From Desulfobacteraceae bacterium 4572_19 (GTDB lineage Bacteria; Desulfobacterota; Desulfobacteria; Desulfobacterales; NBLS01): a DNA stretch of 5,140 bases. The notes beneath the pieces are model-generated. The model saw only the letters and a list, made by a program, of their open reading frames with translations. It was not told the origin of the DNA and searched no databases. Below are positions 1,405 to 5,140 of the stretch, piece by piece. A program made the translations under genes and the position numbers. The stretch spans positions 13,643 through 18,782 of the forward strand of contig NBLS01000016.1 in the NCBI GenBank assembly GCA_002084385.1, given 5' to 3'. Each line of letters begins with the position of its first letter. Within the stretch, counting starts at the first letter, position 1.

Positions 1405-2487
1405 ATGAATAAAATAAAAACAAACTGCCTTCCGGCATTAATCGGAAGCCTTCCCATGAAAGATCATCGAAAAGCAACAGAACTTATGCTCTCTTGCACG
1501 CCTGAAATTCCCCTATGGGTTCAATTACCTATTTATAGCGAAGAGGGGATGATGACACAATTTTTACCGGGATTTCCCGGCATAACAATAAAGGATGAAA
1601 AAATTTTCATAGATACTGAAAGCAGTAATTTTGAGCAGGAATTTTTAAGCTTTTTTGAAGATTATCTTCTTTTATCAGAAACCGGTACAGATATTTCCAA
1701 CTCCAGATTTGCCATGACAACTGAAACAGCAAAAGGTTTTTTTGAACTTATTAATATACTAACCTGCAAACTTTTAGAAAAAAAAGAGATGCCATTTGCA
1801 ATAAAAGGACAAGTTACAGGTCCCATTACCTTCTGCACAAGCGTAACTGACCAGAACGGACGTGCAATATTTTATAACGATCAACTTAAAGATGCGGCTA
1901 TAAAACATCTTGCTATGAAAGCAAAATGGCAGGTTCAGCAATTTGCAAAATTTAATTGTCCCACCTTTATTTTTCTTGACGAACCCGTACTTGCAGGGTT
2001 TGGTACATCAGCATTTATAACCATAACCCGGAAAGATGCAGAAGATGCGTTGAATGAAATAATAGATACAATTCATGCAGAAGGTGGTCTTGCCGGCATA
2101 CATGTTTGTGCAAATACAGAGTGGCCGATACTACTTGAATCTTCTGTGGATATCATCAGCTTTGATGCTTACTCGTTTTTTGATAAATTTATACTCTACC
2201 CTGAACAGATAAAACAATTTATGGAAAAAGGCGGACTGCTTGCATGGGGGATTGTTCCAACAGATAATCTTAAAACCATTGAAAAAGAGAGTGTTAAATC
2301 ATTGCTCACAAAATGGAATCTACAGGCACTGCAACTTGAAAAAATCGGACTTACCATGGAAACAATTATGTCCCAAACCATGATAACTCCAAGTTGCGGA
2401 ACAGGATCTTTACCACTTAACCTTGCAACAAAAGTATTAGAGCTTACACGGGGTGTAGCAGATGAGTTAAGGGAACAACTTGTTTAA
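1405..2487 (+). CDS. Single-domain cobalamin-independent methionine-synthase-like (MetE C-terminal/UROD superfamily) protein
   Basis: This 360-residue protein matches the catalytic C-terminal barrel of MetE and lacks the N-terminal half. Such proteins transfer a methyl group to a zinc-bound thiol, usually homocysteine. Seen: GSLP at 14-17, a KGQVTGPITF segment at 134-143 (MetE: KGMLTGP), LDEP at 191-194 (MetE: IDEP), and H233-x-C235 and C331, which align with MetE zinc ligands His641, Cys643 and Cys726 (E. coli). D254 sits where MetE has Glu665. From family knowledge, 'core' MetE proteins of this size often take methyl from a corrinoid or other non-folate donor; which one applies here is unknown. 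Relatives such as alkyl-CoM transferases share the zinc site, so homocysteine is not proven as acceptor. ATG 1405 is chosen because AAGGA (1391-1395) lies 9 nt upstream. The gap after epmA is 14 nt, so they are probably co-transcribed. Codons and frame look intact, unlike most neighbours. Confidence 0.8.
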   Translation: MNKIKTNCLPALIGSLPMKDHRKATELMLSCTPEIPLWVQLPIYSEEGMMTQFLPGFPGITIKDEKIFIDTESSNFEQEFLSFFEDYLLLSETGTDISNSRFAMTTETAKGFFELINILTCKLLEKKEMPFAIKGQVTGPITFCTSVTDQNGRAIFYNDQLKDAAIKHLAMKAKWQVQQFAKFNCPTFIFLDEPVLAGFGTSAFITITRKDAEDALNEIIDTIHAEGGLAGIHVCANTEWPILLESSVDIISFDAYSFFDKFILYPEQIKQFMEKGGLLAWGIVPTDNLKTIEKESVKSLLTKWNLQALQLEKIGLTMETIMSQTMITPSCGTGSLPLNLATKVLELTRGVADELREQLV

Positions 2488-2949
2488 ATTTTACGGTATT
2501 TTTTACAATAACAAAGAGGGGGCTCCCCTTGAAGATCTATCTTTACCAAAGTTATAATTGGTACATTAAGATCCCGTAAATAGTTTCTTCCATCTTCAAA
2601 AACCTTTTCAATAACACACCCTACGCCACAAAGAGTTGCCCCACTTTGGGCAATAAGATCAACCATAGCTTTTACTGTATAACCTGTGGCCAGAAAATCA
2701 TCAATCAAAAGAACTTGATCAGTACTTTTCAGATATTGGGAAGATACAAACAGTTTAACAACTCCACCTTTAGTATGACTTGGAGCCTCACCCTCAAACA
2801 GTTGCTTCTTTAAAAAGTTCGGCAAACCTTGTTCCCATCTCTGTTATAAGATTGGGGTAAAGCTGATGATTTATAAAGCTGTCCGCTTTGATAATACCAT
2901 TTCCAAGATAAGAAATTTCTTCTTTTGCACGGTTTAAAAGATTATCCAT
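2484..2949 (-). pseudogene. xpt: Xanthine phosphoribosyltransferase, broken by an internal frameshifting deletion
   Basis: Xpt converts xanthine and PRPP to XMP in purine salvage. The N-terminal part runs from ATG 2949 to TGA 2794 (51 residues) and aligns with the B. subtilis Xpt N-terminus, for example IIKADSFINHQ against VLKVDSFLNHQ. The rest is in another frame down to TAA 2484. It holds APSHTKGG, the PRPP-binding motif VLLIDDFLATG, and VIEKVFEDGR (Xpt: VIEKSFQPGR). Missing between FKEAT and FEGEAP are about 35-40 residues, covering the ESSGIAPA and FARK regions of the family. The break lies near 2794-2805. The gene would be about 580 nt intact but is 466 nt here. A good site, AAAAGG, lies 4 nt before the ATG and overlaps the natural aspS stop, so the intact ancestor was probably translationally coupled to aspS. 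Its stop overlaps the convergent MetE-like stop. A functional product is unlikely. Confidence 0.85.
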
Positions 2950-2957
2950 ATTACCTT

Positions 2958-4522
2958 TTAAAGATCTATTACTTTTAACGACAACTCCATTAACTGTTCC
3001 TTTGAAGGCACGGATGGTGCCTCGGTCATTAAACAGGATGCCTTTTGGGTTTTAGGAAATGGGATAACATCTCGTATGGAAGACTTGATTTTACTGAAAG
3101 CGGGTCAGAATCAAGCTTATCAAAATCTTCATCTAATGGTGAAGTAAAAGGATGGTGCAAAGCCTGATAGCGATTACCTTCCTCATTGTATTCCAATAAA
3201 GGAAAATGAGTTACCCATGTAAAACAAAATGTATTTTTATCAATTAAATCCAGCATTTCGCCTAATTTATTTCTTAAATTACCAAGAGCTTCGTTCACAA
3301 CTTTATGGGTATCTGCAACAAAAAATATAAGATCGCCTGTTTCCATTCCAATACGGTCAGACAAAGCTTTTTTTTCTTCATCGGTAAAGAACTTGGCAAT
3401 CGGTGACTGCCAGCCGTCTTCTTTTACCTTTATCCATGCCAATCCTTTTGCTTTATAAATAGCAACAAATTCAGTAAGATCATCAATTACTTTTCTGGAA
3501 AAACCCATACAGCCTTTTGCATTAATTGCTTTAACAAGCCCACCCTTTTTTGCCACATTTGCAAAAACTTTAAAGCCTGTTTTTTCAACAATATCTGAAA
3601 CATCTTTAAGTTCAAGTTCAAAGCGAAGATCAGGTTTATCCAATCCGAACTTATCTATGGCAGTATCATATGTCATGCGTGGAAACGGCTGTTTAAGTTC
3701 CACATTTTTAACCTTTTTAAATACATTACAAATAAGTCCTTCAGCCGTTTTCATTATCTCTTCTTCGTCGGCAAAAGACATCTCAATATCAATTTGTGTA
3801 AACTCCGGTTGACGATCGGCTCTTAAATCCTCATCTCTAAAACAGCGAACAATCTGATAATATTTATCAAAACCACTAATCATAAGAAGTTGCTTAAAAA
3901 GCTGCGGAGATTGGGGAAGTGCATAAAACTCACCTGGATTTACCCTGCTTGGAACCAAATAATCCCTTGCACCTTCAGGGGTACTCTTTGTAAGAATTGG
4001 AGTTTCAATATCCAAAAAGCCCAAATCGTTAAGATACTCCCGAACAGCAACTGAAGTTTTATGACGTGCAATTATATTTTTTTGAACATGGGGTCGCCTT
4101 AAATCAAGATGCCGATTTTTCAAACGAATATTATCAGAAGCATCAACCCTGTCCTCTATCATAAACGGTGGAGTCTGGGCACTGTTTAGTATTTTTAATT
4201 CCGATACAATTATTTCTATTGTTCCGGTTTTCATTTTACGATTAATCATCCCATCCGGACGAGCATTCACTACGCCCTTTACACCGATTACATACTCACT
4301 TCTTAAAGTATGTGCCTTTGCGTGAACTTCACGGCTCTCCTCTTCAGGGTTAAAAACAACCTGAGTCAACCCCTCTCTATCTCTTAAATCAATAAAAATA
4401 ACTCCGCCGTGATCCCTTCGGCGTTGTACCCAGCCCATAAGAATAACTTCGCTACCGATATCTTTATCTCCAAGCTCACAACAGTTATGGGTTCTTTTCA
4501 TCTTTCCTTGCATGTCAATCAA
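2958..4522 (-). pseudogene. aspS: Aspartyl-tRNA synthetase lacking motif 3 through an internal frameshifting deletion
   Basis: AspRS charges tRNA-Asp (also tRNA-Asn in many bacteria). Numbering from TTG 4522: OB-fold anticodon domain with WVQRRRDHGG at 31-40, TPEGARDYLVPSR at 181-193, QSPQLFKQLLM at 204-214, motif 2 FRDEDLRADRQPEFTQID at 228-245, the bacterial insertion domain about 290-420, and HHPFTSP at 456-462. After SDPLSVK (478) the frame reads unrelated residues and stops at TAA 3029-3031. The family C-terminus ([11 protein letters not shown], then [11 protein letters not shown]) is present in a different frame from 3083 to TAA 2958. Compared with E. coli AspRS, about 75 codons are gone, including the GGGS segment and motif 3 (GLDR) that completes the ATP site. 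The product should be inactive. The start is TTG 4522 by Shine-Dalgarno spacing or ATG 4501 by the family N-terminus (MKRTHNCCELG). Confidence 0.9.
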
Positions 4523-4530
4523 TGGAATAT

Positions 4531-4538
4531 TTCCTTTT
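4531..4538 (-). promoter_or_regulatory. aspS ribosome binding site favouring the TTG start
   Basis: On the minus strand AAAAGGAA lies 8 nt before TTG 4522, 17 nt before ATG 4513 and 29 nt before ATG 4501. Spacing favours TTG. Family alignment favours ATG 4501, whose own candidate site (AAGGA, inside the ORF) is only 3 nt away. The site abuts the end of repeat copy 3. Confidence 0.5.
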
Positions 4539-4541
4539 AGT

Positions 4542-4627
4542 TTTATATAAAAGTAGGGGCAAACCCTTGTGGTTGCCCAATAAGCATGTGCCTAACTTTC
4601 ATATTTTATTGTGGCGTATTATTCGCC
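4542..4627 (-). repeat. Modular palindromic repeat, copy 3 (inverted relative to copies 1 and 2)
   Basis: Read on the minus strand: hairpin GGCGAATAATACGCC (4627-4613), outer arm ATATGAAAGT (4604-4595), inner stem GGGCAACC (4578-4571) against GGTTTGCCC (4565-4557) with loop ACAAG, then closing arm ACTTTTATAT (4554-4545). Bases 4542-4614 match copy 2 at 70 of 73 positions. The hairpin module is closest to copy 1. The copy separates hisS from aspS and ends a few bases before the aspS ribosome binding site. There is no U-run after a stem, so it is not a standard intrinsic terminator. Confidence 0.85.
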
Positions 4628-4676
4628 ATGGCAAGTTATAGCTTCTGTTTTATTTCATAGCTCGCACCATAAAGGC

Positions 4677-5140
4677 TTACACAATTGTATTTTTCACTGT
4701 CGCAATTACATTTTCTTCCTGAATCTCAATTTGCTCACGGGTATTCATATTCCGAAGTATTATCTTATTTGAATCAAGTTCTTTTTATCACCTACGATAA
4801 GAACATAATCTGTATTAAGTTTACCTGCACGTTTCATAAGACTTTTTAAACTTCTATCACTAAAATCCATCTCGGAAAAAATTCCCAAAGCATTTAAATT
4901 ACTAGACCAAACAAATGCTTTTGATCTGGCTTTTTCCCCTGTTGCAATAACAAATAAATCTGGATTTCTTATAAGATTTTGCTTATTTGCAGAGATAATT
5001 TCCGCCAATCTATCAAAACCAATTGCAAAACCTACAGCCGGTTGGGACTGCCCACCTAACTGTTTTATAAGACCATCATATCTACCGCCACCTGCAACGG
5101 CATTTTGTGCACCCATGGCAGTTGTTTGAAGTTCAAACGT
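4677..5140 (-). CDS. hisS: Histidyl-tRNA synthetase, C-terminal part, frameshifted near its end
   Basis: HisRS charges tRNA-His. The frame enters from the right edge of the window. Seen are the histidine-binding AGGGRYDGL segment, motif 3 GFAIGFDRL, and the C-terminal anticodon-binding domain (DLFVIATGE through SLKSLMKRAGKLN to YVLIVGDK). The zero frame then stops at TAA 4760-4762. From an A5 run (T5 at 4782-4786 on the + strand) the -1 frame continues with a typical HisRS ending: KELDSNKIILRNMNTREQ onward to TAA 4677-4679, about 36 residues. One extra A (A6) would restore one reading frame. The lesion may be a sequencing error, a real frameshift or, less likely, recoding: T-AAA-AAG is not a full slippery heptamer. 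hisS upstream of aspS is a common bacterial order, so all three minus-strand genes probably formed one operon. Confidence 0.88.

Follow-up and report, generated by a model that had tools for sequence, protein, structure and literature searches.

A disrupted aspS at the native hisS-aspS-xpt locus of an uncultured Desulfobacterales bacterium, with recent gene loss and assembly fault as competing explanations

The aspartyl-tRNA synthetase AspRS is normally an essential enzyme, and in class II synthetases the GGGS segment and motif 3 bind aspartate and ATP. In this work we are describing an aspS gene whose closest described counterpart is the bacterial AspRS (TIGR00459 / PRK00476), represented most closely, among the best 120 protein matches, by P0002 (594 residues). 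Both have in common their domains, the place after hisS and 87% identity over 479 residues, but the copy described here lacks 74 residues with GGGS and motif 3, and its C-terminus is out of frame. In reduced endosymbionts, such as those of cicadas, translation genes can be missing from the genome (PMC6581868, title and opening of the abstract), whereas the whole stretch of DNA analysed here, called the window (5,140 nucleotides), gives no sign of a reduced genome or of a host. The titles and abstract openings listed in literature searches contained no account of two AspRS genes in Desulfobacterales, or of the loss of one of them.

On the minus strand of the window the 3' part of hisS is followed by aspS and then xpt; epmA and a UroD/MetE-like gene are encoded on the plus strand (Table 1). 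The proteins of the window have their own database entries, P0001, P0121 and P0241, which come from an 18,782-bp contig. No RNA families or tRNA genes were reported in the window. In the start region of epmA (484-671) homology sets in at the codon at 494, an ATA located behind AAAGGAG, and the frame contains no ATG, GTG or TTG from the upstream stop to 671; this start was not called a lesion, because the codon at 494 varies in the eight relatives examined. The adjacent UroD/MetE-like gene (1405-2487) encodes a protein of 360 residues, with the best other relative 73% identical, for which no Pfam match was obtained and the score to NF002119 was 40.6 bits (cut-off 258). Inverted repeats (73 nt at 96% and 47 nt at 85%) located at 273-447 and 4542-4641, about 4.1 kb apart, enclose epmA, xpt, aspS and the UroD-like gene. 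With at most 10 candidates per genome scored, matches of 20-46 bases to pieces of the 73-nt arm were found in 10 of 86 G007-family genomes, and the arm looks like a dispersed repeat.

Table 1. Position of the aspS, xpt and hisS features in the window
Feature	Position	Strand	Details
aspS main open frame with stop	3029..4522	-	497 codons; AspRS-like through 3086, then 18 unrelated residues
aspS junction	3083..3088	-	codon TCA (3088-3086), AG (3085-3084), TCT from 3083 = displaced tail; net loss 220 bp
AspRS family C-terminus, other frame	2958..3083	-	41 codons and stop; 33/41 identical to P0002
xpt 5' part (about 50 codons), just downstream of aspS	2797..2949	-	match to Desulfocicer vacuolatum XPRT residues 1-51, 57% identical
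xpt 3' part, other frame	2484..2801	-	TIGR01744 match, profile positions 84-179
hisS 3' part, main frame, running off the window	4760..5140	-	changes frame near 4782-4786
hisS frame change and 35-codon family C-terminus, other frame	4674..4786	-	run of five A at 4782-4786

Similarity of the aspS product to AspRS runs through SDPLSVKS, after which unrelated residues lead to the stop. The first-pass annotation had followed AspRS to SDPLSVK and counted 19 unrelated residues; the former holds, while the first of the 19, S, still matches relatives. Its main claim, that GGGS and motif 3 are gone and the family C-terminus is kept in another frame between 3083 and 2958, is borne out by the displaced tail, whose stop codon occupies 2960-2958. 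The C-terminal piece of P0002 locates this tail in the window at E 1e-19, so the match is not a chance one. The junction had been expected near 3083-3091, which is right within a few bases. Alignment with relatives, proposed in the same annotation as a way to fix the deletion ends, shows that 74 codons (222 bp) are missing, with two bases in their place, between the last kept codon and the tail. The net loss equals 220 bp in comparison with five of seven references and 223 bp with the other two, and offsets to D. vacuolatum also give 220 bp. When the losses in the window, G028 and G359 were measured, one reference row (L117) was left out, because its longest frame is not the AspRS one. The earlier figures were about 75 codons and 225-230 bp. 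Among the best 120 matches, exactly 74 residues fill the lost stretch in 118 of 119 other homologues, the sole exception being P0093, itself cut short, and 36 of the 74 lost positions are conserved at 98% or more.

The aspS product matches TIGR00459 to profile position 471 of 586. It retains the N-terminal OB-fold anticodon-binding domain (PF01336, residues 26-112), the class II core (PF00152, residues 130-472), in which FRDED corresponds to the motif 2 pattern (FRDE), and the GAD insertion domain (PF02938, residues 320-413). By motif pattern, the GGGS segment and motif 3 (G-A-G-DR) are absent from P0001 and present in P0002, and the lost piece comprises much of the active site. As these elements bind aspartate and ATP, the product encoded by this reading is predicted to be inactive as an AspRS and to form no aspartyl-adenylate. 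The lost segment was not found elsewhere in the window, where the only match was the homologous part of epmA (36% identity). In sequence terms aspS is a candidate pseudogene, its frame being disrupted in comparison with intact relatives at its native place.

The ends of the aspS break share at most two bases, provided that the lost ends read as in P0002. Of the 768 codon choices tried, 128 result in two shared bases and 384 in none, while with the other 256 two bases stay unexplained. These figures do not support deletion between long direct repeats, and the lack of a long repeat at the break ends likewise speaks against joining by way of a shared repeat. Mobile origin was rejected: neither junction flank has an exact match in viral contigs, the neighbouring UroD-like gene has no relative there, and no plasmid matches positions 2480-4700 at near identity.

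Both neighbours of aspS are also damaged. In xpt, directly downstream, the XPRT match is divided between two frames with a break near 2797-2803 and about 131 bp missing, as measured against one reference, D. vacuolatum; no match to the missing piece was found elsewhere in the window. In hisS, directly upstream, the frame changes at a run of five A, and the C-terminal piece from the other frame ('hisC' piece) matches four of six loci searched. Many bacteria can do without xpt, and the change in hisS affects no more than about its last 35 residues, so that by general knowledge aspS is the one damaged gene that is both surely essential and destroyed. In five gene pieces there are 48 homopolymer runs of at least five nucleotides, and only the five-A run of hisS coincides with a frame change; among the 15 runs of at least six none does, 14 of them being situated where frames or flanks show no shift. 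Homopolymer errors or small indels are therefore not widespread in the sequence.

In the aspS protein search, for which scoring was confined to the 7998 candidates with most words in common, named matches belonged to Desulfobacterales and other Desulfobacterota. Apart from P0002, the best 120 matches show at most 74% identity to the aspS of the window, and no other aspS above 87% was present among them. Shortly before the aspS match hisS ends in 15 of 16 close loci, and in the remaining one (L012) the sequence begins too near aspS for hisS to be visible. Gene xpt follows aspS in one of the 16, that of D. vacuolatum (L015), which has the same hisS-aspS-xpt order as the window; some of these loci have little downstream sequence. 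The XPRT model passed its cut-off in one of seven genomes. The locus is the ordinary place of aspS and not a dispersed copy. As a separate observation, one draft, WB1_Bin_16 (G006), contains two main-type aspS genes (L011 and L014), 65% and 63% identical to P0002, each with hisS upstream, which represent either a duplicated cluster or a mixed bin.

Positions conserved at 98% or more among the other homologues number 198 in the kept core and 17 in the displaced tail; the core departs from them at three and the tail at none. For comparison, the 119 homologues have on average 1.1 departures (median 1, most 9) per approximately 254 positions for full-length ones, the largest number belonging to P0002 (9/254). 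So few departures in the core and tail mean that aspS was under selection until recently, or that it is intact in the cell. This pattern fits a fresh lesion and an artefact alike and does not separate them.

A second AspRS-like gene (about 720 residues, matching PRK12820, which NCBI names bifunctional AspRS / amidotransferase subunit C) is present, with matches above 700 bits, in 37 of 389 Desulfobacterales genomes, and the NCBI cut-off of 1379 is reached in none of the 389. Within the G007 family it was found in 11 of 86 genomes, in one as a partial gene (G061) and in one in two pieces (G028). Main aspS is absent from 11 of 37 carriers of the second gene versus 105 of 389 genomes overall, so there is no enrichment; absence was scored at E 1e-220, and the second gene was counted above 700 bits from matches to E 1e-200, which makes its number a lower bound. 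Most of the 11 cases represent contig ends or missing contigs. By this threshold they include G357, in which the main gene is full-length; in G029, G169, G300 and G383 it is cut at contig ends, and in G106, G246, G312, G377 and G391 no main aspS fragment was found at E 1e-20. In three of these drafts, G106 (L134), G312 (L131) and G391 (L135), the contig breaks off next to hisS, at the point where the start of aspS would be expected; G246 and G377 yielded no hisS. The only one of the 11 with main aspS broken inside a contig is G359.

The latter draft resembles the window in that its main aspS lies downstream of hisS and has internal losses, with the rest of the gene conserved. It differs in the losses themselves, one of 19-22 bp (with a frame change) and one of 23 codons in frame, both in other parts of the gene, which is situated about 120 bp from a contig end; the second AspRS of the same draft is intact and keeps all three motifs looked for. 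In G028 a single internal loss with a frame change and conserved flanks occurred, as in the window, but in the second, not hisS-linked gene, where 118-133 bp (seven of eight references were usable) were lost from another place; this gene lies on a 4,958,664-bp contig with intact main aspS. Within the order, G028 thus provides one good precedent for internal loss in one of two AspRS genes, and G359 a weaker one with the main gene affected, as in the window. In G059 (L137, G059:C371) main aspS is split between two frames by a small shift near residue 135, as a sequence error would give, and no second AspRS is listed.

The first-pass annotation had concluded that either another copy of aspS exists or the sequence is wrong. 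This alternative is sound but incomplete, as it did not include the damage in hisS and xpt, the native hisS-aspS place and the relatives with a second, distant AspRS-like gene, which together add a third outcome, namely that the loss is covered by another enzyme. The main candidates for the cause of the aspS break are a real recent loss, which we place close to an even chance, and an assembly fault, which is a serious contender somewhat short of one.

In the case of a real loss, the native hisS-aspS-xpt cluster would belong to an uncultured Desulfobacterales bacterium and would have undergone at least three disruptive changes, among them an internal 220-bp deletion that recently inactivated aspS. 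The aspS product would keep the anticodon-binding, motif 2 and GAD parts and, being devoid of GGGS and motif 3, would make no aspartyl-adenylate, so the lesion would be tolerable only with another AspRS. The lesion would then be present in a living cell, in which tRNA-Asp would be charged by another AspRS, perhaps a PRK12820-like second enzyme such as some relatives possess. We consider this account nearly as probable as not, because the 74 residues are lost cleanly with both flanks conserved, the arrangement of the close loci and of D. vacuolatum marks the place as native, and second AspRS-like genes occur in the order, with G028 and G359 as precedents. It is weakened by the fact that three damaged genes side by side also fit a faulty sequence, that the second AspRS does not go with lack of the main one, and that G359 is a draft with aspS near a contig end, while G059 has a frame change with no second AspRS listed. 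A broader conjecture, that Desulfobacterales with two AspRS genes can lose either of them and that the organism of the window has just lost the ancestral hisS-linked one, leaving aspartylation to the divergent AspRS-GatC-like fusion, seems to us rather unlikely.

If the sequence is wrong, pieces would have been joined across short gaps, for instance by closing a scaffold gap without N, so that about 220 bp of aspS and 131 bp of xpt were dropped and a small indel was introduced in hisS, with all genes intact in the cell. Such an origin, whose likelihood we put a little under one half, would explain why three consecutive genes are damaged, one of them normally essential, and why both losses have conserved flanks and no obvious shared repeat, as in blind joins across unsequenced gaps. 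It agrees too with the finding that no other aspS in the best 120 matches exceeds 87% identity and with similar damage in drafts, both close to a contig end (G359) and with no second AspRS (G059). However, none of the 15 longer homopolymer runs coincides with a frame shift, usual long-read errors are small, not losses of 131 and 220 bp, and the 4.96-Mb contig of G028 carries a comparable loss.

It is improbable that the window represents a minority or redundant genome copy (a recent cluster duplicate, a non-viable variant or a polyploid copy) in decay next to an intact near-identical one. Several fresh lesions in one cluster with residues otherwise conserved, the inverted repeats flanking epmA to aspS and the two member sequences in the cluster of the UroD-like gene would suit such a copy, but no near-identical intact aspS is present among the best 120 matches, the gene order is that of the native locus and no plasmid matches 2480-4700 at near identity. 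A residual role of the shortened protein, or of two pieces made from two frames, as a regulator or split enzyme can be practically dismissed: an open main frame of 497 codons and conservation of the kept residues speak for it, but the missing segment was found nowhere else in the window, apart from the homologous part of epmA, and no homologue among the best 120 matches has the same shape.

The locus does not represent a new kind of system. If the break is an artefact, it illustrates that genes with internal losses of 100-220 bp between conserved flanks make their way into protein databases as plausible records, in this case P0001, a 494-residue AspRS. If it is real, it would be a fresh example of the loss of a core translation enzyme and, taken together with G028 and G359, would suggest that either of two AspRS genes can go in Desulfobacterales, which is a side result worth following. 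Should this hold true, the replacement of a housekeeping enzyme would have been caught soon after the break.
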